From a bacterium (GTDB lineage: Bacteria; Lindowbacteria; 2-12-FULL-62-27), in NCBI GenBank assembly GCA_016202645.1, contig JACQOF010000075.1, positions 1 through 16,097 on the forward strand: DNA of 16,097 nt, in the 5' to 3' direction. The notes beneath the pieces were generated by a model. It was not told the DNA's origin. It saw only the letters and a program-made list of their open reading frames with translations, and made no database searches. The position numbers were made by a program, and so were the translations under genes. Shown one piece after another: positions 3,357-14,678 of the stretch (positions are counted from its first letter, which is position 1; each line of letters opens with the position of its first letter).

Positions 3357-4580
3357 ATGACATCCACGTCCGTCCACACGTACCAGGCCGTACGCGCCGA
3401 ACTGGGGAAACGGCTGAAGGAACCGGCACCCGGCCGGGTACAAATCCTGTCCGGGCCGCGGCAGGTTGGTAAGACCACCCTGCTCCTTGAGATCGCCGGT
3501 GATTTCGGCGAATCCGCCCTTTACATCGCCGCCGACGCTCCGGAAGCGGCCCTGGCCGGGTGGTGGGATATCCAGTGGCAGCGCGCCCAGGAAATGGCCG
3601 AGCGTAGAAAGTCGATCCTCCTGATTGACGAAATACAGCACATCTTTGCATGGCCCAAACTGCTCAAGAGCCGGATGGACCAGGTTTATCGAAAAAAAGT
3701 GCCGCTTCACGTCGTGGTCACGGGTTCGTCCGCGCTGCATCTTGGCGCCGGATCCCGCGAGACCATGGCCGGCCGCTTCGAGCGTTTGTCGATTTTACAC
3801 TGGCCCGTTTCAGTGGTGGCGCAGCGATTGCGCATCAAGGAGAACAGAGCCTTGATGAACAGCCTGACGCTCGGCACGTATCCGGGGGCAGTCAGGTTCT
3901 GGAAGGATCCGGCCAGGTGGCGGGCCTATATTCGGGACAGCATCATCGAGCCCGCCATCGGAAAGGACATCCTGATGTTGGAATCCATCCGGAAGCCCGC
4001 ACTTCTTCGGCAAGTCTTCGCGGTAGCGACAGGCCATCCCGCGGAAATCGTGTCCCTGCAGAAGATGGCCGGATGGCTCAACGAAAAAAGCGCCCTCGAA
4101 ACCGTCGCGCATTACCTGCATGTCCTTGAAGAGGCATGCCTCGTCGCAGGCGTACGGAAGTATTCGCGCAGGGAGATTCGCAGGCGCATGGCGCCGCCGA
4201 AACTGATCACCCTCAGTCAGGCCTTTCTCTCCGTTTCCGGACCGGATGAACCTCCGTCTCTGAAGAAGGATCCAGCGCGATGGGGGAGATATATCGAGAA
4301 TGCATGCCTGTCGCATGCATGGAACTGCGGCCAGGAGATATATTACTGGCGGGAAGAGCCCCTGGAAGTGGATGGAGTTTTCATTGGGTCATGGGGTAAA
4401 TGGGCTGTCGAAGTCAAAACCGGCCCCTATACGTACAGGGATCTTGGGGGATTGACCGAATTTTGTCGTCGATATCCGGAATTCAAGCCGATGGTCATCT
4501 GCGATGAGACCCATGTATCCGTGGCGGCGCAGATGAATGTGAAGTGCTTAACGTGGAAAAAATTTCTATTAACGGGATGA
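3357..4580 (+). CDS. AAA-family ATPase with DUF4143 / PD-(D/E)XK-like C-terminal domain
   Basis: A 407-residue protein of the common prokaryotic AAA plus DUF4143 family. Walker A is GPRQVGKTT at 33-41 and Walker B is ILLIDE at 87-92. A sensor-like VTGSSA follows at 121-126, and the SRETMAGRFERL segment (133-144) is typical of the family. The C-terminal part carries a restriction-nuclease-like pattern: Glu314 in YIENA, Glu337 and Asp339 in LEVD, and Glu352-x-Lys354 in VEVK. ATP binding is secure. Whether the nuclease-like site cuts DNA is unknown, and the family has no settled role. No alternative start lies before Walker A, so ATG 3357 stands although no Shine-Dalgarno precedes it. Its stop overlaps the ATG of the CYTH gene. 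Confidence 0.9.
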   Translation: MTSTSVHTYQAVRAELGKRLKEPAPGRVQILSGPRQVGKTTLLLEIAGDFGESALYIAADAPEAALAGWWDIQWQRAQEMAERRKSILLIDEIQHIFAWPKLLKSRMDQVYRKKVPLHVVVTGSSALHLGAGSRETMAGRFERLSILHWPVSVVAQRLRIKENRALMNSLTLGTYPGAVRFWKDPARWRAYIRDSIIEPAIGKDILMLESIRKPALLRQVFAVATGHPAEIVSLQKMAGWLNEKSALETVAHYLHVLEEACLVAGVRKYSRREIRRRMAPPKLITLSQAFLSVSGPDEPPSLKKDPARWGRYIENACLSHAWNCGQEIYYWREEPLEVDGVFIGSWGKWAVEVKTGPYTYRDLGGLTEFCRRYPEFKPMVICDETHVSVAAQMNVKCLTWKKFLLTG

Positions 4581-5404
4581 AACTCAAGAAAGCATTCCCG
4601 ACGGCGGCCGAGTGGCGCTGGTTTGACCGCATCTGCCGGCGCCTGGACATCGACGACCCGCGGAACATCGAGATCGAGTCCAAGCGGAGACTTCTGCCGG
4701 AGGAGGCTGGGGATGTGCGGCGTTACCTGAAAAAACGGACGAGGCCGGGCAACGTCAAGACCACAATTTTTTTCGACCAATTTCTCGATACTCCTAAACT
4801 CGACATCCTCCGCGCCGGCGCCAGCCTCCGGCTGCGGTACAAAGGCAACGGATCGAAGGTCTATCTCCAGTACAAGGGCCGCGGGTTCCTCCACGAGGGC
4901 GTCCTCTACCGGTCGGAATTCACGTCCGGGGAGCTGCGCGATATTTTGCTGGAGGAAAGCCACCACGACGTCGTGCATTTCACCGAGACCACGGTCCGCG
5001 GCATCATCCGAAACCAGATCGATCCCGGCATGGCCGACGCCCTTCGCGCGCATCTGGGCGACCGAGTTCTGGCCCGGGTGACCAACGGGCCGATCATCTG
5101 CACCTACCGGAAGGACAAATTTCTGATTGATCTCGGAAAGGGATTTCTGGAACCTTCGGTGGACCAGGTCTTCGCCTTTGAAACGGCGACGCAGAGCCAC
5201 ACGGGCCTCCACTCGCTCTCGGCTTTCTGCGAATATGAAAACGAAATCAAATCCGACGGGGAAAACCTCCTCTTCAAACTCAAACACATCCCCGACCTGC
5301 TTGACTTCGACCGGAAACTCGCCAAACATTTCAACATGCCCCCGGAACGCCTCGACAAATACCACCGCTGCGCGTCGTGCTTCCTGCCGAAACGAGCCGC
5401 CTAG
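4577..5404 (+). CDS. CYTH-family protein (class IV cyclase / triphosphatase-like)
   Basis: A 275-residue protein with the CYTH/triphosphate tunnel signature ExExK near its N-terminus: Glu32, Glu34 and Lys36 in IEIESK. Alternating charged beta-strands follow: SLRLRYKG, KVYLQYKGR, YRSEF and CEYENEIKS. Proteins of this fold bind inorganic or organic triphosphates in a beta-barrel tunnel with a divalent metal. Known activities include adenylate cyclase (CyaB type), thiamine triphosphatase and inorganic triphosphatase, and polyphosphate polymerases (VTC) are related. The substrate here cannot be chosen. I use ATG 4577, which overlaps the ATPase stop (ATGA). A GTG at 4544 would add 11 residues and a 37-nt overlap. 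Four Cys-rich or basic residues near the C-terminus (HRCASCFLPKR) are unexplained. The stop shares four bases with the convergent gene. Confidence 0.75.
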   Translation: MKLKKAFPTAAEWRWFDRICRRLDIDDPRNIEIESKRRLLPEEAGDVRRYLKKRTRPGNVKTTIFFDQFLDTPKLDILRAGASLRLRYKGNGSKVYLQYKGRGFLHEGVLYRSEFTSGELRDILLEESHHDVVHFTETTVRGIIRNQIDPGMADALRAHLGDRVLARVTNGPIICTYRKDKFLIDLGKGFLEPSVDQVFAFETATQSHTGLHSLSAFCEYENEIKSDGENLLFKLKHIPDLLDFDRKLAKHFNMPPERLDKYHRCASCFLPKRAA

Positions 5405-6168
5405 GCGCCGTCCAGCTTGCCGAGCAGGCGGAGCAGGCCGTCGAGGATCGTCAGCGGATGGGGCGGACAGCCTGGAATGTAGAGATCGACGGGCAGAATC
5501 CCGCCCACGCCGGAATCGCCGCCGCGAAAGGGCCCGCCGCTGATGGCGCAGGCGCCGACGGCGATGACGAGTTTCGGTTCCGGGACGGCCTCGTATGTTT
5601 TCTGGAGGGCCAGGGTCATGTTCCGAGTCACCGGGCCGGTCACGAGAATTCCGTCGGCGTGGCGGGGGGACGCGACGAATTGGACGCCGAACCGGCCAAG
5701 ATCAAAAACGACGTTGTTCAGGGCCTGGAGTTCAAGGGCGCATCCACTGCAATCGCCGGCGGCGACCTGCCTGAGTTTAAGGGATCTGCCAAAGAGACTT
5801 CTCATTTTTTTGTCGAGCGCCTCCGCCAGCCGCGTCTCCGCGGATTTCCCGGAGATGACCAACGCTTCCCGCGTTCGCGCGGCCAGCCGGTGATCGGTGG
5901 TGTAGCGGATCGCGCCTTCGGGGCATGAGTCCACGCACTCGGTGCAGAACAGGCATCGGCCAAGATCCAGATGGATCCCGCGGTCGATTTTGATCGCCTG
6001 CGTCGGACAGGATTTCTCGCAAGCGTCGCAGTCCGTCGGGCATTTCGTATCATCGATCGCCGGGCGGCCGCGGAATCGTTCGGGAAAGGCCGGGATAGAC
6101 GCGGGATAGGCGGAAGTGCGATGTCCCTGCCGCATTCTTGCTTTCAGAACGTTCCAGAGGTTGATCAT
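5401..6168 (-). CDS. hyfI: Ferredoxin-NuoB fusion: small electron-transfer subunit of Ehr/hydrogenase-4-like complex
   Basis: A 255-residue fusion that joins what are two genes in E. coli hyf (HyfH-like and HyfI-like). The N-terminal half is a two-cluster ferredoxin. One cluster has Cys43, Cys47, Cys50 and Cys54 (C-x3-C-x2-C-x3-CP, one residue longer than the usual first spacing). The other has Cys72, Cys75, Cys78 and Cys82 (standard spacing). The C-terminal half is the NuoB/small-hydrogenase-subunit fold with all four proximal-cluster ligands: Cys140 and Cys143 in DCSGC, Cys207 in GAC, and Cys234 in PGCPP. It should carry electrons along three [4Fe-4S] clusters to the large subunit. The ATG follows the large-subunit stop directly (TAGATG). 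It is the last gene of the operon; its stop overlaps the convergent CYTH gene. The symbol reflects homology, not proven hydrogenase function. Confidence 0.9.
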   Translation of the reverse strand: MINLWNVLKARMRQGHRTSAYPASIPAFPERFRGRPAIDDTKCPTDCDACEKSCPTQAIKIDRGIHLDLGRCLFCTECVDSCPEGAIRYTTDHRLAARTREALVISGKSAETRLAEALDKKMRSLFGRSLKLRQVAAGDCSGCALELQALNNVVFDLGRFGVQFVASPRHADGILVTGPVTRNMTLALQKTYEAVPEPKLVIAVGACAISGGPFRGGDSGVGGILPVDLYIPGCPPHPLTILDGLLRLLGKLDGA

Positions 6169-7650
6169 CTAAAGATCATGGCCGGCGTAGGATAGGTTGA
6201 AACTTTTGTTGCAGAGCGGAAAATCCGAAATCGGCGTGTCCCGCAGGGCCATGGCCAGCGCCGTCCAGTTGTGAAACGACGGATCCTTGACCTTGTACCG
6301 CAGGATCTCTCCGCTTTCGCCGGTGATTCCCGCGTGCGCGATCTCGCCCCGCCAGCCTTCCACAAGACTCACCGCCATCCGGCCGGGGCGGGCGGCGGCG
6401 CAGGGTTGTTTCAGGGTTCCGGCGGGAAGATCCTGGATTTGGGAAAGCAGAAATGAAATGGACCGCGCGATTTCGAGATGCTTCAGCATCGCCCGGGCAT
6501 AAACGTCGCCGCCTTCGATAGTCGATACCGGAATGCGCGCGGACCGGTACGCGCCGTGGGGATGGTCCGACCGAACGTCGCGCGGAACCCCGCAGGCGCG
6601 GGCCGTCGGCCCGACCAAGCCCAGATCCCGGCATGCTCTTTCGGAAATGCGGCCGGTTCCCTCGAAGCGAGCCTGCACCGAGGGCGTCTCGAACATGAGA
6701 TCGGCGGCGGACGCGATATCCCGTTCGGCGCGGCCAATCCTCTCCGAAAAATCGCCGGCCATGTCCGCGGTCAGATCGAACCGGACGCCGCCCGGCCGGA
6801 TCAGCGAGCGGCCGTTCCGGTTTCCGCTCAGATCCATGAGAAGGTTCAGAAATTCTCCGCGAAGCCGTCCAAAATAGGCGGCGGAAGGCAGAAACCCGAC
6901 GTCCCCGCAGAGCGCTCCAAGATCTCCGACGTGATTGGCGAGCCGTTCCAGTTCCAGGGCGACCGCCCGGATCGCCTCGGCACGGGGCGGAACGGCGCCG
7001 CTCGACAGGGACTCGTGGACGGCGCAGTAGGCCAGAGCGTGGCCGATCGCCGTATCCCCCGCGATCGATTCCGCCACCGCCATCGCGCGCGGCGCGGGAG
7101 AAGATTCGAGAAGTGTTTCGGCGCCGCGATGCTGATACCCGAGCTGGATTTCCAGGTGAAGCACATCCTCGCCCCGGCACTGAAACCGGAAATGACCCGG
7201 CTCGATGATGCCCGCGTGGACCGGACCCACCGCCACCTCGTGAAGTTCCTCGCCCTCCGCCGAAAAAAACGCCGTGTCACCGGGGATGGAGTCCCGAGCG
7301 TCAGGATATCTGACCGGCTTCATCCACGGGTGGCCTTCCGGGACGATGCCAAACTGTTCCGCGATTTCGCGTTCGAAGAGATGCGCCTGCGGGCAGTCCG
7401 GCGTCAGAGATTCAAATCGGCCGCCGGGTTCGCACGACAGGACCGACAATGTTTTTTCGGAGTCATCGGCCAGAACGCACAGAAGACGAGTATTCGCGGC
7501 GCCGGGTCGAAAGCCGAAATAGGTCGAGATCCGCAGTCCCCGGGCGACGCTGTCCAGAATCTCCCGGCGAAATCGGTCTGCCGGAAGACGCGGGACATCG
7601 ACGGTCCGGAAGGATTCCCCGTTTCGTGCCGTCAGCGCGTCCATCGTCAT
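6169..7650 (-). CDS. hyfG: NuoCD/HyfG-like large subunit lacking NiFe ligands (Ehr complex)
   Basis: A 493-residue protein combining a NuoC-like 30-kDa domain (about 1-140, including HLFEREIAEQFGI) with a NuoD/[NiFe]-hydrogenase large-subunit domain (EIQLGYQHRGAE onward). The start is the ATG at 7650, overlapping the hyfF stop (ATGA). The frame extends 65 codons further upstream, but that part lies over hyfF. In group 4 hydrogenases the N-terminal RxCGxC and C-terminal DPCxxC bind the NiFe(CN)2CO centre. Here the aligned segments read SIAGDT (195-200) and DPSFHN (456-461), so all four cysteines are gone. The C-terminus runs on another 32 residues (DFPLCNKSFNLSYAGHDL). The usual trimming of the C-terminus by a maturation endopeptidase is therefore not expected. 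The quinone- or substrate-site role is unknown. Confidence 0.9.
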   Translation of the reverse strand: MTMDALTARNGESFRTVDVPRLPADRFRREILDSVARGLRISTYFGFRPGAANTRLLCVLADDSEKTLSVLSCEPGGRFESLTPDCPQAHLFEREIAEQFGIVPEGHPWMKPVRYPDARDSIPGDTAFFSAEGEELHEVAVGPVHAGIIEPGHFRFQCRGEDVLHLEIQLGYQHRGAETLLESSPAPRAMAVAESIAGDTAIGHALAYCAVHESLSSGAVPPRAEAIRAVALELERLANHVGDLGALCGDVGFLPSAAYFGRLRGEFLNLLMDLSGNRNGRSLIRPGGVRFDLTADMAGDFSERIGRAERDIASAADLMFETPSVQARFEGTGRISERACRDLGLVGPTARACGVPRDVRSDHPHGAYRSARIPVSTIEGGDVYARAMLKHLEIARSISFLLSQIQDLPAGTLKQPCAAARPGRMAVSLVEGWRGEIAHAGITGESGEILRYKVKDPSFHNWTALAMALRDTPISDFPLCNKSFNLSYAGHDL

Positions 7651-9113
7651 GGATCCGTGATCAGCCGCGCGGCTCGATCGAACGCGGATGAAAGCCACGG
7701 CGGCATCCAGACGCCGGTGAAAATGAGCCATGCGATCATGGCCGCCGCCAACCATCGCGCGCCAACGGTCTCCGGGCGCGGCGGCTCCATGCGAGGCGGC
7801 GGATCTCCAGCCGCCATGACGATGGCCGGCCTGAGCGCGCCGCAAAACACAACGGCGATAGACGCGATAAAAATGGCGCTGACAATCATATGCCCGCCGG
7901 CAATCCCCGCCCGGACGATCAAAAATTCACTCATGAAAATTGCGCCCGGCGCACAGCCGATCAAAATCAGAATTGCCGTGAAAAGACCCGTGCCCCACGT
8001 CGGGCAGGCGGCGGCGCTTCCGACAATCCCCGCCATGTTTCTCGTTCCGTACCGCTGGACCAGCCGGCCCGCGCAGAAAAACGCCAGAGTCTTGCTGACG
8101 GAGTGATTGAGCGTGTGATACAGGGCGGCGGCGCATCCGGCCGGTCCAAGCCCCAGGCCGACGGTGATGATGCCCATGTGCTCGACACTGCTGTAGGCCA
8201 GCAGGCGTTTCACGTCCCGCTGGATCAGCACAAACACCGCCGCCACCATCATGGAGGCAAGTCCAAAGCCCGTCAGAATCCGCCCGCCCCATTCGGGTCC
8301 GCCGGCGGCAGCGGAGACGATCGGGAGAAACCGGCAGATGCAGTACGCCGCGCAGTTCAGGAGCACGCCGGAAAATACAGCCGACACCGGCGTCGGCGCC
8401 TGACTGTGCGCGTCCGGCAGCCAGGCGTGCATCGGTGCAAGACCGACCTTGGTGCCGTAGCCGACCACGATCAGCACAAATCCTATTTTGACGAGGCCGG
8501 GATCCATCTGTCCCGCGTGGGTAACGAGGCTCGTCCATTGAAGGGCGCCTTCGCCCGACGCGCCCGCCGCCACTGACGCGCCGTAAATGAAGACCGTCCC
8601 CAAAAGGCCCAGAACGATGCCGGCCGAACAGATGATGAGATATTTCCACGCGGCTTCGACGGACAGCCGGTCGGCGTGAAGGCAGATGAGAAACGCCGAC
8701 GCCAGCGTCGTAGATTCCAACGCGACCCACATGAGACCGACGTTGTTGAAAATCAGCACGCCCACCATGGACCCGAGGAACGAAAACCACAACGCGCCGA
8801 ACTTGCGCGCCTCCCGGTCGTCGAGCGACCGGTCTGAATCCTCGTGGTCAAAATAATCGCGCGCGTAGATGGAGGAAAACAGAAAAATGCCCGTGACCAG
8901 GCAGAGGTGAAATGCCGAAAGAGCGTCGAGCGCAAGGTGCCCGAAACAGGCCTCCAGGCCGCCCCGGCGATAAACGGCGGATACCGCCGCGGCCGCCAGG
9001 GCCGTCTCGGCGGCGGAACCGAGGATGACCCAGGTGAAAACCGCGGACCGGCGCGGAATCAGAAGACAGACTAACGCAGCCATCAGAGGCACAGCCGCCA
9101 GCGCCCAGAGCAT
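7647..9113 (-). CDS. hyfF: HyfF/NuoN-like proton-conducting membrane subunit
   Basis: A 488-residue antiporter-like subunit of the NuoL/M/N family with about 14 hydrophobic segments. Family ion-path residues are visible: Glu133 in WVALES (TM5), Lys222 in GTKVGLAPMHAWLPDAH (TM7), Lys341 in NHSVSKTL, and Glu396 in MSEFLI (TM12). At the TM8 position where HyfB has MIKTG, this protein has LLNCA, without Lys. The ATG at 9113 is seven nt from a strong AGGAGG. A GTG one codon earlier (9116) is only four nt away and is less likely. The stop overlaps the large-subunit ATG. It probably moves H+ or Na+ across the membrane, driven by electron transfer in the peripheral arm. Confidence 0.92.
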   Translation of the reverse strand: MLWALAAVPLMAALVCLLIPRRSAVFTWVILGSAAETALAAAAVSAVYRRGGLEACFGHLALDALSAFHLCLVTGIFLFSSIYARDYFDHEDSDRSLDDREARKFGALWFSFLGSMVGVLIFNNVGLMWVALESTTLASAFLICLHADRLSVEAAWKYLIICSAGIVLGLLGTVFIYGASVAAGASGEGALQWTSLVTHAGQMDPGLVKIGFVLIVVGYGTKVGLAPMHAWLPDAHSQAPTPVSAVFSGVLLNCAAYCICRFLPIVSAAAGGPEWGGRILTGFGLASMMVAAVFVLIQRDVKRLLAYSSVEHMGIITVGLGLGPAGCAAALYHTLNHSVSKTLAFFCAGRLVQRYGTRNMAGIVGSAAACPTWGTGLFTAILILIGCAPGAIFMSEFLIVRAGIAGGHMIVSAIFIASIAVVFCGALRPAIVMAAGDPPPRMEPPRPETVGARWLAAAMIAWLIFTGVWMPPWLSSAFDRAARLITDP

Positions 9114-9120
9114 CACGCCG

Positions 9121-9126
9121 CCTCCT
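9121..9126 (-). promoter_or_regulatory. AGGAGG ribosome binding site deciding the hyfF start
   Basis: A consensus AGGAGG overlaps the hyfE stop codon (TAG, 9125-9127). It lies seven nt from ATG 9113 and four nt from GTG 9116, which favours ATG 9113. It is a strong Shine-Dalgarno at one of the few internal junctions of the module without an ATGA overlap. Confidence 0.6.
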
Positions 9127-9778
9127 ATCCCTTCAGCTTCCGCATCCGGCTGACATCAGTGTGCGAAAACTGCGCGTGGACGCTCTGAATGAACCCGCCG
9201 AATATCATGGCGGCCAGAAGCACGTCGAAGAGAATGGCCAGCTCGATCACAAAAGGCAAACCGCGGCTGATCCGCAGGGACAGAACCAGAACGCCGTTTT
9301 CGAGAATTAAAAATCCAATCACCTGCCCGACAGCTTTGCGCCGGTTCACCATGATCAACATGCCGCACAGGACCGTCGCCGTGCCCACGGCGCCCATGAG
9401 CGCGTCGTGCGGATGGACCGCGCCCGGAATCGCCGCGCCGGCCCGAAAGGCGACAGCGAGAATGGCGAAACCGAGAAGGACGGACGCGACGGGACCGAGA
9501 AAAGGGTGAACCACGCGGAATTCGTCCGTGGAATGGATCACTCGGACAAGGATCAGCGGCATCAGCACGCCCTTCACGATCATCGTTCCCGCCGCCAGAA
9601 ACACCGCCTCCGGAGAGCCGGCCAGCGCCTGAGGCAGAGGCAGGAGCGAGAGAAGACAGCCTTGAAGGGCAACGGCGCGGACGGCGTTGACGTAGCGGCC
9701 CGTGTTCAGGATGTAGAAATTGGTGATGACGACCAGAACCAGAACCCCTGAAAGCGTGCCGGTCACCCAGGCCGTCAT
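9125..9778 (-). CDS. hyfE: HyfE-like membrane subunit (NuoK-related)
   Basis: A 217-residue protein, almost the length of E. coli HyfE. It is highly hydrophobic with about six to seven segments, starting MTAWVTGTLSGVLVLVVITN. The C-terminal half resembles NuoK/MrpC: GFLILENGVLVLSLRISRGLPFVIELAILFDVLLAAMIFG, with acidic residues inside membrane segments (Glu in ILENG and IELA, Asp in LFDVL) that fit an ion path. The ATG at 9778 overlaps the hyfC stop. The open frame continues 173 codons upstream, but that part is low-complexity and arginine-rich, lies over hyfC and is rejected. It is an integral part of the membrane arm between HyfC and HyfF. Confidence 0.88.
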   Translation of the reverse strand: MTAWVTGTLSGVLVLVVITNFYILNTGRYVNAVRAVALQGCLLSLLPLPQALAGSPEAVFLAAGTMIVKGVLMPLILVRVIHSTDEFRVVHPFLGPVASVLLGFAILAVAFRAGAAIPGAVHPHDALMGAVGTATVLCGMLIMVNRRKAVGQVIGFLILENGVLVLSLRISRGLPFVIELAILFDVLLAAMIFGGFIQSVHAQFSHTDVSRMRKLKG

Positions 9779-10716
9779 CGCGGGGCCGCCAGAGACAGGA
9801 TCACGCCGAACCCGGAAAGAACAAAAGACAGCGTGAGAAGCTGCGGGATTCGCGAGAGCCGAAACCGGGCCATGGTCGACTCGACGACGCCGACGAGAAC
9901 CGCCAGAGCCGCAAGACCCAGGAGGAGAACCTCCCCGCCGTCCCAGAAACCGCCGCTGCGGATGGGATAAACAATCCGGACCAGCAGGGCGCCGAGGACG
10001 AAAAATTTGACGGCGGAGGCATATTCGATCAGGGCGAGGTCCGGGCCGCCGTGATCGAGCACCATGACTTCGTGGATCATCGTAAGTTCCAAGTGCGTGT
10101 TCGGATCGTCGATCGGGATGCGCGAGTTTTCCGTCAGAAACACCACGGCCATCGCGGCCGCCACGAGACACAGGGCCGGGGCGTGAATCGACCAGATGCG
10201 GATCAGGCCGACGCTTAACAGATCGCTCATCGATAAACTGCCGGCTTCCCGCGCCAGGGCCAGAAACCCGAGGAGAAGCGCCGGCTCGGCGAGACACGAG
10301 AAAATCGCCTCACGGCTCGCGCCCATGCCTTCGAAGGCCGAGCCTGTGTCGAGCGCCGCCGTCATCGTGAAAAATCTCGACAGGCCCCAGAGGTAGGCGA
10401 AGAGAATGAGGTCGCCCTGAAACGTCAGCGGCGCCTCCATCCCGCCGAACGGAATCATCAGCGACGCCGCCATGGCCGCCGAGAATGAGATCACCGGCCC
10501 GGCGCGGAGGACTGAGGTGGTAGACCGGCTGTAGACCGTGCCCTTTCGGAAAAGTTTGAGGATGTCCCAATAGAGCTGTAAAACCGGCGGCCCCTTCCGG
10601 CCGGAGAACCAGGACTTGGTCCGGGCGGCAAGTCCGGGCAGGATCGGCGCCGCGGCGAGGACAAAAACCCACTGCCGGAGAATGTCCTTCGCGAATTGCG
10701 CCGTCTCGCCGGTCAT
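9775..10716 (-). CDS. hyfC: HyfC/NuoH-like membrane subunit
   Basis: A 313-residue NuoH/HycD homologue, the subunit that docks the electron-transfer arm to the membrane and shapes the quinone or coupling cavity. The family signature is clear: an acidic stretch at residues 196-231 with ENSRIPIDDPNTHLE, then MIHEVMVLDHGGPDLALIE, nearly as in E. coli HyfC/HycD. An early cytoplasmic loop has GRKGPPVLQLYWDILKLFRK (39-58), and DTGSAFEGMGASREA (123-137) is another conserved loop. About eight hydrophobic segments are seen. The start is the ATG at 10716, overlapping the hyfB stop (ATGA). The 38 extra upstream codons in the same frame overlap hyfB and look non-coding. Confidence 0.93.
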   Translation of the reverse strand: MTGETAQFAKDILRQWVFVLAAAPILPGLAARTKSWFSGRKGPPVLQLYWDILKLFRKGTVYSRSTTSVLRAGPVISFSAAMAASLMIPFGGMEAPLTFQGDLILFAYLWGLSRFFTMTAALDTGSAFEGMGASREAIFSCLAEPALLLGFLALAREAGSLSMSDLLSVGLIRIWSIHAPALCLVAAAMAVVFLTENSRIPIDDPNTHLELTMIHEVMVLDHGGPDLALIEYASAVKFFVLGALLVRIVYPIRSGGFWDGGEVLLLGLAALAVLVGVVESTMARFRLSRIPQLLTLSFVLSGFGVILSLAAPR

Positions 10717-12665
10717 TGAAACATCTGGAACGACAGGAGGGCCGCGAGCGTGAGGAAAACATAGAGAAGATAGGTCTGCACGCGGCCCTGCTGGATCCAC
10801 AGCCATTTTTCCGCAAAGGTCTGGATCCATCCGAAGAGGGGTCCGAAAATCCCACGGGTCGCCAGATCGTCCGCGTGCGACTCATAGGAGGCCGCTTTCG
10901 GAAAATATCCGTGGGGGTCATGACGCCGCTCCCGCGGTTGAATGAGTGGCTGAAAAAGATCGATGAACGGCTGGACGAATGAACTTGCGGTGTACTGCAT
11001 CCGGCTCGTCGGCGCCGAATACCCGCAGTCCCACGTGACCGCCCGCGAAACCGGGCGGCCCCGAAAAATCCACGCGCGAAAGAAAATCACGGCGATTCCC
11101 AGTCCGACGAGGACGGCGGCGGAAAGCTGGACCCACGTGAGAACAGACGTCATCGACAGGAGGTGGTCTGTCTCCGAGGCCAGAACGGGAAAGATCAGCA
11201 CGCTGGCAGACACGGCCGGAAAGAGGCCGATCAAAATACAGGCGGCCGCCAGCACAGCCATCGGAGCCGTCATGGACAGGGGAGCCTCCGAGGCGGCCAG
11301 GGGCGTCCGGCGTTCTCCCAGAAACATCACGCCGAAAACCTTCGTAAAACAGGCGGCGGCCAACCCTCCGATTAGTGCCAGTCCCGCGATGGCGGCGGCG
11401 CCCGCCGCCCCGCAAACCGCCGGGCCGCCGAGGGCCAGTTTGAAAAAGCAGACATAAATCAAAAATTCGCTGACGAACCCGTTCAAGGGCGGCAGACCGC
11501 TGATCGAGGCGGAGCCGATGAGAAAGGTCGTTCCGGTCGCCGGCATTTGTTTCAGAAGTCCTCCCAACTTTTCGACGTCCCGCGTGCCCGTCGCGTGCAG
11601 GACGCTTCCCGCGCCCATGAAAAGAAGTCCCTTGAAGAGCGCGTGATTGACGACATGGAGAAGGGCGCCGGCCAATCCGAAAACGGCCGCCTCTTCCATT
11701 CCGTATGCCTGACCCAAAAGCGCGCCGCCGAGTCCCAGCGCGATGATGCCGATGTTCTCGACGCTGTGATAGGCGAGAAGCCGCTTGACGTCATGCTGGG
11801 CCAGCGCGAACAGCACGCCGAGAACGCCGGACACAAGTCCGGCGGACAGGAGCGCCATCCCCCACCACGCCGGGGGCGGACCCAGGAACGTCACGACGCG
11901 GACGAGTCCGTAGATTCCCGTTTTGATCATCACGCCCGACATCACCGCCGACACGTGACTCGGCGCCGCCGGATGAGCTTCCGGCAGCCACACATGAACC
12001 GGCCAGAATCCGGCCTTGGCGCCAAATCCGATCAGCGCGAGAACAAACCATGCGCCGGCGCGGCTTTCCGACGAGCTCGGGAGGCTCCGCCAGTCATCAA
12101 AATCGAAACTTCCCGCAACGGTTCCCATCCACGCGAACAAGACCAGAATAAACGCAGTGCCGATGTGAGTGGCGACCAGATACATCCATCCCGCATGACG
12201 GACCTCGCTTTGGCGGGAGTCGAGGAGGACAAGAAGAAACGAGGAAATCGCCATCATCTCCCACGCCAGTAAAAACAATATCGCGTTTTTGACGCAGACC
12301 ACGACGCACATGGAGACCGCCAGCAGATGAAACAAAAAAACCGCGCGGCCGACCTGCCGGTCATCCCTGCCATGCAGATATCCGATGCTGTAGACGGAAG
12401 CCAGTGCGCCGAGCAGAAAGATCGGCGCCAGAAAAACCGCCGAGAGGGGATCCACAGCCATGTGGATTTCGCCGTAGGGCATCGGCCATGCGGCGCGAAA
12501 GGACTCCGGCGCGCCGGTCTGAAGAACATGCGCCGCCGCCCCGAGTCCCAGCGCGGACCCGACGACCGCCAATGCCGCGGAGACGGCCGGCTGTCGCCTT
12601 CCTCCAAAAAGTCCGGCGACCCCGCCGACGATCCAGAGACCCAGGCCAACGAGAAGCGCTGTCAT
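10713..12665 (-). CDS. hyfB: HyfB/NuoL-like proton-conducting membrane subunit
   Basis: A 650-residue antiporter-like subunit close in length to E. coli HyfB. It has about 14-16 hydrophobic segments and the family core FGAKAGFWPVHVWLPEAHPA. Candidate ion-path residues are Glu136 (LAWEMM, TM5), Lys217 (TM7), Lys248 (MIKTG, TM8), Lys345 (NHALFKG) and Glu400 (FVSEF, TM12). The C-terminal region after TWDCGY carries the amphipathic linker and final membrane segment seen in HyfB proteins. Its ATG follows the stop of the DUF2419-like gene without a gap (TAAATG). It is the first gene of the six-gene complex. No HyfD homologue is found, so the module has two antiporter-like subunits, HyfB and HyfF. 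Confidence 0.94.
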   Translation of the reverse strand: MTALLVGLGLWIVGGVAGLFGGRRQPAVSAALAVVGSALGLGAAAHVLQTGAPESFRAAWPMPYGEIHMAVDPLSAVFLAPIFLLGALASVYSIGYLHGRDDRQVGRAVFLFHLLAVSMCVVVCVKNAILFLLAWEMMAISSFLLVLLDSRQSEVRHAGWMYLVATHIGTAFILVLFAWMGTVAGSFDFDDWRSLPSSSESRAGAWFVLALIGFGAKAGFWPVHVWLPEAHPAAPSHVSAVMSGVMIKTGIYGLVRVVTFLGPPPAWWGMALLSAGLVSGVLGVLFALAQHDVKRLLAYHSVENIGIIALGLGGALLGQAYGMEEAAVFGLAGALLHVVNHALFKGLLFMGAGSVLHATGTRDVEKLGGLLKQMPATGTTFLIGSASISGLPPLNGFVSEFLIYVCFFKLALGGPAVCGAAGAAAIAGLALIGGLAAACFTKVFGVMFLGERRTPLAASEAPLSMTAPMAVLAAACILIGLFPAVSASVLIFPVLASETDHLLSMTSVLTWVQLSAAVLVGLGIAVIFFRAWIFRGRPVSRAVTWDCGYSAPTSRMQYTASSFVQPFIDLFQPLIQPRERRHDPHGYFPKAASYESHADDLATRGIFGPLFGWIQTFAEKWLWIQQGRVQTYLLYVFLTLAALLSFQMFQ

Positions 12666-13622
12666 TTAGTAGCAGGTGGTCCGAAAAATGGGTTGGAAGA
12701 GGTCTTTTCGACGGGCGCAGACATCGCGAAGGACGCAGTTCGGGCAGTCAGGCTCCGTCATCTCGGGACAGCGGGTCCGATTCTCAAAGAAGAACCAGTC
12801 GATCGAATCGATGCCTTTACCGGATCTTCGAACAAGTTCCCGCACGATATCGTAGACCTTCCCGCGGATCGCCGCCTCGACGCCCGCGTCCACAAACCGC
12901 CGGTCGATCAGCCTCTTCTCGAGCGCCGCGTCCCGCACGTCCAAAAGACCGATCCGCAGGCAGGACCGCATGTTGTGGTAATCCACAATGGGCGGGATAT
13001 CGAAGGGCGTCCCTGCGGGCGCTCTGAGAAATCGTTCCGGGCGGTTTGCGAGGATCAGCGCGAGAAGCGCCGCCTTCTTGGCCAGCGGATCTTCCTTGTA
13101 CCCGCCGAGGCGGGAAAGAATCTTCATGAGATGCGGGATCGGGTCCAGGAGCTCGCGGCATTCGGCCACGATGCGGACCGGCGTTTTCTCCATCGCCAGT
13201 AAATCCCGCGCGAAGGCTCTCCAGAGCGCGCCGTGGGTATCCAGCCGCGGCAGAGGGCATCGTCCCTGATCGTCGGAAAAAACGGCCGCGACTTCGGCGT
13301 CGGACATTTCCGCCTGCCGTTTCGTATCGAATATGGAGGGGTCCGAGGCCGCCGAGCGTCTCAGGGAATGCCAGACAAAATCGCTTCCCTTCAGACGCTT
13401 TCCGCCCACCTCGGCGTACATCGGCTCGGTGTAACGTGTTCCATCGTCCAGCCAGAATCCGTACTGGTGCTTGACTCCGGTAAAAAAGTAATCCACCACC
13501 GCCGGTTCGTTCGGCGCGGGAAGCCCGGGGAAAGTCCAGTCCGTCGGCCTGCACGAATCCAGGCCTCGCAAAAAATCCGCCACTTGATCAAGCCGTTTTT
13601 CGTTTATGGCAATGTTCATCAT
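12666..13622 (-). CDS. DUF2419-like (queuosine-salvage/HhH glycosylase-type) protein with C-terminal four-Cys cluster
   Basis: A 318-residue soluble protein. By motif pattern it resembles the queuosine 5'-phosphate N-glycosylase family (DUF2419/Qng1). The resemblances are DYFFTGVKHQYGFW (44-57) for the family's N-F-x-FW region, MSDAEVAAVFSDD for the EL-x-x-IF-x-SD region, PIVDYHNMRSCLRI (211-224) for the DYR segment with a conserved Asp214, and a late FVDAGVEAAIRG and SIDWFFFE. Qng1 proteins are structurally related to helix-hairpin-helix DNA glycosylases. Unlike ordinary Qng1, it ends in Cys285-x7-Cys293-x2-Cys296-x5-Cys302, close to the [4Fe-4S] loop of endonuclease III (x6, x2, x5). It may salvage queuine, or it may be a divergent FeS glycosylase. 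Start ATG 13622 has AAGG upstream. It abuts hyfB. Confidence 0.55.
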   Translation of the reverse strand: MMNIAINEKRLDQVADFLRGLDSCRPTDWTFPGLPAPNEPAVVDYFFTGVKHQYGFWLDDGTRYTEPMYAEVGGKRLKGSDFVWHSLRRSAASDPSIFDTKRQAEMSDAEVAAVFSDDQGRCPLPRLDTHGALWRAFARDLLAMEKTPVRIVAECRELLDPIPHLMKILSRLGGYKEDPLAKKAALLALILANRPERFLRAPAGTPFDIPPIVDYHNMRSCLRIGLLDVRDAALEKRLIDRRFVDAGVEAAIRGKVYDIVRELVRRSGKGIDSIDWFFFENRTRCPEMTEPDCPNCVLRDVCARRKDLFQPIFRTTCY

Positions 13623-13631
13623 CGCAGGCCT

Positions 13632-14678
13632 TCAAAACCGGCGAGCGCCGGACCAGAGCGCAAGAAACGCTTCCGCATATCGCGCGACGGCCTCCGGCCG
13701 GCGGACGACCACGTTGATGTCGTTGTACAAATTCAGAGGACCGTGTCCCCAGTTGGTTCCGCCCACCACCGCGGCGCCGTCCACCACCAAGACCTTGGCA
13801 TGCGTGATCACTTCATCCGAATCAAACTTCACCGCGATACCGGCCTTCTCCATATATACTTGGGCCTCCCGGTTGAACTTCAGCGTTTTCTCGGCAAAAG
13901 TCCCGCCTGATTTATCCAGGAGCACTTTCACATCAACCCCGCGCTTTTTGGCCCGCTCCATTTCCCCGATCAGGTCCCGCGCGGCTGATCCCGGCGGACC
14001 GACGTTGATTCCGTAGAGGACGACGTAGATCCGGGTTTGGGCGGTTTGAAAGAGGCGTTTGACGGCGCGAAGATACTGCCGGTTGAACAACACATCCGCC
14101 TCAGCCGAACGGAAAGGCTCCAAGTCCGGTTCATCGGCCGCGTTTTTCCAGAGCCGATCAAAATAGGCGCGCACCTGTTTGGCCGCCGCCGGGTCGGCCA
14201 GGCACACATTGGCCTCGTTGTTGTCGGAAATGGATTTGTCGCTGAAATTGGTGGAGCCGACGATAAATCGTTGATCGTCGACCCATATCATTTTGGCATG
14301 CGTGGTCTTGTCCCCCGGCTCTCCGTACTCGCGCGTTTCATCCAGCTTGATGGCGATGCCTTTTTCGGCCAGCCGCTCCACATTTCTCCGGCTCGCGCGC
14401 ACGGTGTCGTCGATCAAAACGCGAACATCCACCCCGCGCCGGGCCGCGGCCAGAATTGCGTCTTCGATCCGCCGCACCGCGCCGTACGACACGTATTCGT
14501 ACTGAATGATCCGGACGCTGTTCTTCGCGGCGCCAATCATTTCCAGAACCGCGGGCAGATACTCCCGGCCAAGCACGGCTTGAATGGCATTCGAATCAGC
14601 CGCGGCCGAACCCGTGAACATCAGCCCGGCGGCGGAACCCCAAATCGTCAGGATCAGCCGAAAAAGCGGATTGCGCAT
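13632..14678 (-). CDS. Exported phospholipase D-like protein (two HKD motifs)
   Basis: A 348-residue PLD-superfamily protein. It begins with a Sec signal peptide: MRNPLFRLILTIWGSAAGLM, then SAAA with likely cleavage after Ala27. It has two HKD half-sites: His127, Lys129 and Asp134 in THAKMIWVDD, followed by GSTNFS; and His293, Lys295 and Asp300 in THAKVLVVD, followed by GGTNWG. The superfamily cleaves or transfers phosphodiester bonds through a phospho-His intermediate. Substrates range from phospholipids (cardiolipin synthase) to DNA (Nuc-like). The short two-motif layout without extra membrane segments suits a periplasmic hydrolase or nuclease. It lies 10 nt from the deacetylase stop and 9 nt before the DUF2419-like start, in the same strand run. 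Confidence 0.88.
   Translation of the reverse strand: MRNPLFRLILTIWGSAAGLMFTGSAAADSNAIQAVLGREYLPAVLEMIGAAKNSVRIIQYEYVSYGAVRRIEDAILAAARRGVDVRVLIDDTVRASRRNVERLAEKGIAIKLDETREYGEPGDKTTHAKMIWVDDQRFIVGSTNFSDKSISDNNEANVCLADPAAAKQVRAYFDRLWKNAADEPDLEPFRSAEADVLFNRQYLRAVKRLFQTAQTRIYVVLYGINVGPPGSAARDLIGEMERAKKRGVDVKVLLDKSGGTFAEKTLKFNREAQVYMEKAGIAVKFDSDEVITHAKVLVVDGAAVVGGTNWGHGPLNLYNDINVVVRRPEAVARYAEAFLALWSGARRF

Follow-up and report, generated by a model that had tools for sequence, protein, structure and literature searches.

An Ehr-type complex in a Lindowbacteria genome with an emptied and apparently strictly preserved [NiFe] pocket

The stretch of DNA analyzed here, hereafter the window, comprises 16,097 nucleotides (positions 1 to 16,097 of contig JACQOF010000075.1, assembly GCA_016202645.1) from a bacterium of the lineage Lindowbacteria, 2-12-FULL-62-27. 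It carries a minus-strand operon (12665-5401) with the gene order HyfB, HyfC, HyfE, HyfF, EhrL, EhrS, which almost certainly encodes an Ehr (energy-converting hydrogenase-related) complex with the architecture of hydrogenase 4 (Hyf) and formate hydrogenlyase (FHL). Its genes are listed below.

10713 to 12665, minus strand: HyfB-like antiporter subunit (EhrA type); NCBIfam NF005086, E 5e-188, and Pfam Proton_antipo_M
9775 to 10716, minus strand: HyfC/NuoH-like subunit; Pfam NADHdh, E 7e-31; ATG overlaps the hyfB stop (ATGA)
9125 to 9778, minus strand: HyfE-like subunit; NCBIfam NF008556, E 9e-17; ATG overlaps the hyfC stop
7647 to 9116, minus strand: HyfF-like antiporter subunit; NCBIfam NF005044, E 1.8e-119
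6169 to 7650, minus strand: EhrL, HyfG/HycE-like large subunit of 493 residues; Pfam Complex1_49kDa and Complex1_30kDa; ATG overlaps the hyfF stop
5401 to 6168, minus strand: EhrS, small subunit with fused HyfH-like and HyfI/NuoB-like parts; Pfam Oxidored_q6 and Fer4

An earlier reading of the letters alone (the sequence-only reading) had placed a six-gene complex at 6169-12665. The operon is real, but this interval holds five genes, and the sixth, EhrS, lies at 6168-5401. The ATGA overlaps at three junctions (hyfB/hyfC, hyfC/hyfE, and hyfF/ehrL), together with the directly abutting ehrL and ehrS (TAGATG), match the expectation for a translationally coupled operon. The same reading took the membrane subunits and the iron-sulfur (FeS) arm to be intact, and both are: all pump residues were found in HyfB (E136, K217, K294, H341, K345) and HyfF (E134, K223), and EhrS keeps all 12 cluster cysteines. 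Eight of these belong to the HyfH-like 2x[4Fe-4S] domain (C43, C47, C50, C54, C72, C75, C78, C82) and four to the proximal N2-type site of the HyfI/NuoB-like domain (C140, C143, C207, C234), giving the cysteines for three [4Fe-4S] clusters. Gene and domain annotation found no NADH input module in the operon.

The following segments of the HyfC-like subunit and of EhrL, in which 30 kDa-like and 49 kDa-like domains are fused, carry the argument.

10045 to 10122, minus strand: HyfC loop between transmembrane helices (TMH) 5 and 6, RIPIDDPNTHLELTMIHEVMVLDHGG, invariant in Ehr (81-sequence conservation; E. coli comparison)
7183 to 7230, minus strand: EhrL beta1-beta2 loop, VGPVHAGIIEPGHFRF; contains E150, a proton glutamate of hydrogenase type equivalent to HycE E193
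7051 to 7062, minus strand: former NiFe motif 1, where A197-G-D-T200 replaces CxxC (alignment to HycE)
6172 to 6225, minus strand: EhrL C-terminal tail, DFPLCNKSFNLSYAGHDL, including S487-Y-A-G490 (6192-6181)

The register was taken from a phmmer comparison with HycE of the FHL structure and from a ten-sequence alignment that included HycE, HyfG, NuoCD, and the genome's own NuoD. In a single consistent register, HycE C241, C244, C531, and C534 correspond to A197, T200, S487, and G490 of EhrL, which bears out the earlier claim that the large subunit lacks all four NiFe cysteines. SIAGDT (7068-7051) aligns with HycE RVCGIC, as had been proposed. The assignment of DPSFHN (6285-6268) to the DPCxxC site had to be given up: the sequence exists, but it aligns with HycE ATYANW and Thermus Nqo4 APSFVN, being the PSFxN block common to Nqo4 and hydrogenases. 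The second NiFe position in fact lies at the very C-terminal end, in SYAG, approximately 30 residues beyond DPSFHN, and the aligned residues indicate that the loss of the second cysteine pair holds despite this correction. No cysteine able to realign to either position (L1 or L2) was found in the window EhrL; C480 sits seven residues before L2 and is N, I, or T in some relatives, and position 489, commonly Cys among relatives, is Ala here. The final residue, L493, is aligned with HycE R537, at which HycE ends once the maturation protease has cut it. EhrL is thus encoded in an already 'processed' form and has no C-terminal extension for such a protease. Judged by its sequence, EhrL cannot build a [NiFe] site.

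The absence of hydrogenase maturation genes from the window had been cited as further support, and this point does not stand. One contig (C84) of the genome bin (2.9 Mb, 82% complete) carries hypC, hypD, and hypE as well as the end of hypF. Another (C98) encodes a true [NiFe] large subunit of group-3 type, with both RICGIC and DPCISC, and after it comes a hypF-like gene that lies at the end of the contig (together L174:7167-8585 and 9532-11665). With hyp genes elsewhere in the genome, their absence from the window is uninformative either way.

Around the emptied site, HycE H188, E193, and R478 are retained as H145, E150, and R434, the last of these being the canopy arginine, while D529 and S283 are both replaced by Asn (N485, N239). 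Complex I binds quinone through a His and a Tyr, H38 and Y87 in Thermus Nqo4; these align with I149 and G198 of EhrL. With the hydrogenase-type residues kept and the quinone pair absent, the second coordination sphere is hydrogenase-like and not complex I-like. The AlphaFold2 model of EhrL has a mean predicted local distance difference test (pLDDT) score of 90.8, and its closest solved structure is HycE (7z0s_E, Z 46.2, root mean square deviation 2.2, 478 residues); complex I 49 kDa subunits follow with Z of approximately 43 over approximately 350 residues. This likeness of fold carries no functional information.

On a phylogenetic tree, EhrL falls into one clade (support 100/100) with Geobacteraceae, Planctomycetota, and other Ehr proteins, separate from hydrogenases and complex I. 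Together with the missing site, this placement upholds the original Ehr-type assignment. Its counterparts in two genomes from the window's own family are 73-77% identical to it. In GTDB genomes it has at least 578 relatives, listed in Omnitrophota, Planctomycetota, Verrucomicrobiota, Geobacteraceae, sulfate reducers, Myxococcota, Acidobacteriota, Spirochaetota, and Elusimicrobiota, and further relatives lie on rhizobial and actinobacterial plasmids. Paired neighboring Ehr operons were seen on a Variovorax plasmid (L022) and in a Verrucomicrobia genome (L074). A scan of IMG/VR found no EhrL, and matches in phage collections were of low identity and Hyf/Nuo-type, so a viral gene is not suggested. 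Ehr is defined by the loss of the Ni/Fe ligands (PMC6349859, PMC10284858, PMC12342949); the family has already been named, its missing ligands noted, and its function stated to be unknown (PMC6349859, PMC10284858, PMC10432482, PMC12342949, PMC7304191, PMC3569383).

The former catalytic region is far more constant than the protein as a whole. Across 91 EhrL sequences, the last 18 residues have a mean entropy of 0.24 bit, compared with 1.51 for the whole protein. N481, K482, S483, S487, Y488, G490, and D492 are invariant, G198 and D199 occur in 90 of the 91 sequences, and F484 and L493 reach 99%; at the positions of HycE C531, E193, and R478, all 91 carry S487, E150, and R434, respectively. The tail NKSFNLSYxGxDL, which stops at the HycE cleavage point, is nearly invariant in approximately 120 relatives. 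Part of the 91-sequence set was gathered with the patterns IEPGHFRF or NKSF[ND]LSY and hence selected partly by the tail motif, but the tail is equally fixed in sets that were not (11/11 sequences aligned earlier and 30/30 Verrucomicrobia loci fetched via EhrS). In the HyfC-like subunit, the TMH5-6 loop is invariant as RIPxDDPxTHLELTMxHExMxLDHxG; in E. coli HyfC, HycD, and NuoH, the loop at this position is rich in glutamate. This loop is one of three that join the catalytic and pump arms in FHL and MBS (PMC9474812, PMC7684303). The Ehr complex of the window lineage is under purifying selection: against the sister genomes, the ratio of nonsynonymous to synonymous substitution rates (dN/dS) is 0.16-0.17 for EhrL, 0.13 for EhrS, and 0.19-0.20 for HyfB, values that are approximate since dS is close to 1. 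With at least 578 relatives and such a ratio, EhrL is more than a chance occurrence.

The FeS wiring is less constant, as a comparison of the cysteines in approximately 80 EhrS sequences revealed. C43, C47, C50, and C82, which by ferredoxin geometry we take to be the distal [4Fe-4S] cluster, are lost in L039, L082, L084, L060, L086, L100, L104, and L105 with the cysteines of the other ferredoxin-type cluster kept, and partially lost in L059 and L102. Omnitrophota (L026/L027), the nearest kin beyond the window's family, and Gemmatimonadota (L029/L073) have lost both ferredoxin clusters, and the rhizobial and Rhodococcus EhrS proteins have no ferredoxin domain. The proximal N2-type cluster is lost at L034:9546-10337, L071:5179-5973, L097:9578-10417, L163, and in a plasmid copy, L023:11296-12168. 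The first four of these keep their ferredoxin cysteines and share a recurring signature, in which GGCNGCEAD has become GG...EEAD or VEAD and PGCPP has become PGWPP, with GAC changed to GAE in three of them. Such N2-less forms are rare (approximately 5 of 115), yet in three genomes they are the only Ehr copy, and one pair (L142, identical to L097, and L163) has a dN/dS of 0.10.

On a 94-sequence EhrL tree, the wire states require 12 changes, at least 9 of them forced by supported branches, against a mean of 20 after shuffling. Three tree labels (L011, L012, L013) had been set to 'full' unchecked, and L013 in fact lacks the ferredoxin domain; the ferredoxin-domain changes are therefore nearer three than four, and one wire change fewer is likely. 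The C-terminal pocket tail is unchanged in every wire-loss lineage. Across the relatives, the emptied catalytic pocket thus appears to be preserved more strictly than the FeS wiring. The sequence-only reading had reasoned that a retained wire demands a different electron acceptor. This is reasonable for the window copy but is no rule for the family, as relatives have lost the distal, both ferredoxin-type, or the proximal clusters.

The best overall explanation, to which we assign a probability of roughly 55%, is a six-subunit Ehr complex in which redox chemistry at the remodeled pocket is coupled to ion translocation. A ferredoxin-fed, proton-coupled mechanism is proposed more tentatively, at slightly below even odds. 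Reduced ferredoxin would pass electrons into EhrS through the two ferredoxin-type clusters, and the N2-type cluster would deliver them to a small acceptor at the pocket, which would be bounded by AGDT of the L1 loop, by E150 of the beta1-beta2 loop, and, in the C-terminal tail, by K482, S487, Y488, D492, and the free carboxylate. In FHL, Cys531 is thought to exchange protons with Glu193 (PMC9474812); in EhrL, Glu150 and Ser487, the latter replacing this Ni ligand, may move protons. Proton-coupled reduction would then work the HyfC loop (DDPxTHLELTMxHE), whose action would drive, or be driven by, ion translocation via HyfB and HyfF. Two POR-gamma genes indicate that the genome is able to make reduced ferredoxin. 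By homology, quinone is the obvious candidate acceptor, but its binding residues are missing.

Several points weigh against this explanation. The EhrL pocket is intact even in relatives that have no ferredoxin domain or, in some cases, no N2 cluster, so electron flow to it cannot be essential in every Ehr, and a non-redox, protonic role may apply to part of the family. The blocks of the AlphaFold2 model that contain the beta1-beta2 loop and the last residues have pLDDT means of only approximately 52-54, which leaves the pocket loops uncertain; such low values might be expected for EhrL modeled without EhrS. Moreover, the literature searched contained no biochemistry of any Ehr.

An alternative is that the complex acts as a ferredoxin:quinone oxidoreductase, its pocket reducing quinone as in complex I. 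The shared NuoD fold (Z of approximately 43) speaks for it, as does the statement of the FHL authors that the NiFe site became the complex I quinone pocket (PMC9474812). The genome also encodes complex I, including the NADH module (C22 and the split contigs C1/C38), and two UbiA-family genes, and a UbiA-family gene is present in nearly all Ehr genomes tested, one (G337) having no match. This last test (PF01040) discriminates poorly, because other prenyltransferases match too and all control genomes have UbiA. We nevertheless consider quinone reduction unlikely: I149 and G198 stand where complex I has H38 and Y87, E150 and R434 give the second sphere a hydrogenase character, the N2 cysteines form a spaced CxxC rather than an adjacent pair, and no quinone pathways were detected in Margulisbacteria that carry Ehr (PMC6349859).

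Similarly unlikely, in our estimate, is that the catalytic part serves chiefly for protonic coupling, with the site relaying protons or binding a gating ligand and electron transfer being modulatory or dispensable in part of the family. It draws on the approximately 12 wire-state changes, several of them N2 losses, through which the pocket and the HyfC loop were kept, and on the N2-less EhrS proteins that are the sole Ehr copy of their genome or, as a pair, evolve under constraint. However, most Ehr complexes, the one in the window included, keep all 12 cysteines under purifying selection, which is hard to explain if electrons are irrelevant, and the rare N2-less forms may have changed function. 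In its general form, the idea is that electron transfer does not end at the Ehr centre, which instead couples through protons or a ligand. The FeS wire would be optional as an input and, where N2 is gone, disconnected from the pocket, and such complexes would run or gate ion translocation without classical redox catalysis in the large subunit. This form is likewise doubtful.

The genes around the operon bear on a third proposal, a formate dehydrogenase-linked Ehr as suggested for Margulisbacteria and Geobacter. It has been published (PMC6349859), and Ehr was more abundant on formate in Geobacter (PMC7894505). Yet among approximately 160 same-strand flanking open reading frames (ORFs) from approximately 80 loci, no recurring partner oxidoreductase or Pfam family was found, and in particular no molybdopterin or NuoEF-like gene. 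This points to a soluble donor and makes it less likely that the clade has a formate dehydrogenase or NADH module of its own. In the window's own genome bin, which is 82% complete, the only PF00384 matches are a 1298-residue frame and a weak one in the complex I gene region, and we regard a formate dehydrogenase link as improbable. Partner candidates from clustering of the flanking ORFs were rejected, as they were only antisense shadow ORFs. One further locus (L115:990-3454, G025) has same-strand POR/IOR-type 2-oxoacid:ferredoxin oxidoreductase genes upstream of its Ehr cluster, which may supply ferredoxin.

A polysulfide or other sulfur reductase resembling Mbs, with the chemistry at the proximal cluster itself, is very improbable. 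Mbs is indeed a ferredoxin-fed group-4 relative that lost NiFe ligands (PMC7684303), but two of its four cysteines remain and the loop at its proximal cluster is shorter by three residues. In Ehr all four are gone and the CxxC spacing is that of hydrogenases; moreover, the proximal cluster is absent in some Ehr complexes. Finally, a decaying, non-functional hydrogenase, suggested by the loss of all four ligands and by one 2026 Geobacter paper that calls Ehr nonfunctional (PMC13194489), is contradicted by the selection data (dN/dS 0.13-0.20, pocket invariant across many phyla) and hardly deserves consideration.

The sole recurrent neighbor, recovered by a profile search, was a fusion of a helix-turn-helix (HTH) domain with a phosphotransferase system (PTS) domain, HTH_17 + PTS_EIIA_2. 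It occurs at 46 of 87 loci, and in most cases its end coincides with the hyfB start (e.g., L114:3688-4410; L113:17797-18510, minus strand; L035:2243-2962). The HTH-EIIA sequences inspected retain IAIPH, the context of the active-site His, so PTS phosphorylation may control many ehr operons. No paper describing this link was found, within a limited literature coverage. The gene is present in both sister genomes; in the window genome only a plain EIIA-like match was found. Its slot is occupied here by an unrelated ORF.

12666 to 13622, minus strand: 318-residue ORF outside the complex, with a C-terminal 4-Cys loop

This ORF had no match in NCBIfam, Pfam, PDB, or plasmid searches, and among 60 genomes its homologues occur only in two sister genomes, elsewhere than here. 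It was ruled out as an Ehr partner, since the sister genomes carry it away from ehr. The window further holds a phospholipase D-like protein (13632-14678, minus strand) with sub-threshold similarity to the DISARM DrmC model (NF038319), and an AAA_14/DUF4143 ATPase (3357-4580, plus strand) overlapped by a CYTH-domain gene (4544-5404, plus strand), the end of which overlaps the ehrS end by 4 bases in convergent orientation.

Papers on the Ehr family, which is spread over many phyla, repeatedly raise the question of its reaction. The present comparison yields testable points, namely the emptied but invariant pocket, a Cys-to-Ser exchange beside a conserved proton glutamate, and the Ehr-specific HyfC loop, together with variants lacking the distal, all ferredoxin-type, or the N2-type clusters and an HTH-fused PTS-type regulator that heads many operons. 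The natural wire-loss variants are ready-made mutants for the question of whether Ehr needs electrons, which also bears on how redox chemistry and pumping are coupled in complex I.

Compared with E. coli FHL and hydrogenase 4 (HycE, HyfG; group 4a), the window complex shares the fold (Z 46.2), the Glu193/E150 and Arg478/R434 positions, and the subunit types; it differs in having A, T, S, and G for the four cysteines and another HyfC loop, in lacking a C-terminal extension that would be processed, and in an operon without HycB, FdhF, or HycI partners. With complex I (Nuo) it has the NuoD, NuoB, NuoH, and NuoL/M-type subunits and the absence of NiFe in common, but the operon contains no NuoEFG, the H38/Y87-type quinone pair is missing, and the N2 cysteines are spaced (C140-x2-C143) where those of NuoB are adjacent. 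Pyrococcus furiosus MBS is also a group-4 derivative without NiFe and is ferredoxin-fed, but it keeps two of the four cysteines and a special proximal-cluster loop, while EhrL keeps none. Against other Ehr complexes nothing essential differs, except that the operon lacks the HTH-PTS-EIIA regulator carried by many relatives. It shares the gene set, the loss of the four NiFe cysteines, and the pump subunits with the Ehr of Geobacter (GSU0739-0745), comammox Nitrospira, and Margulisbacteria, and is a further, typical member of the published family.

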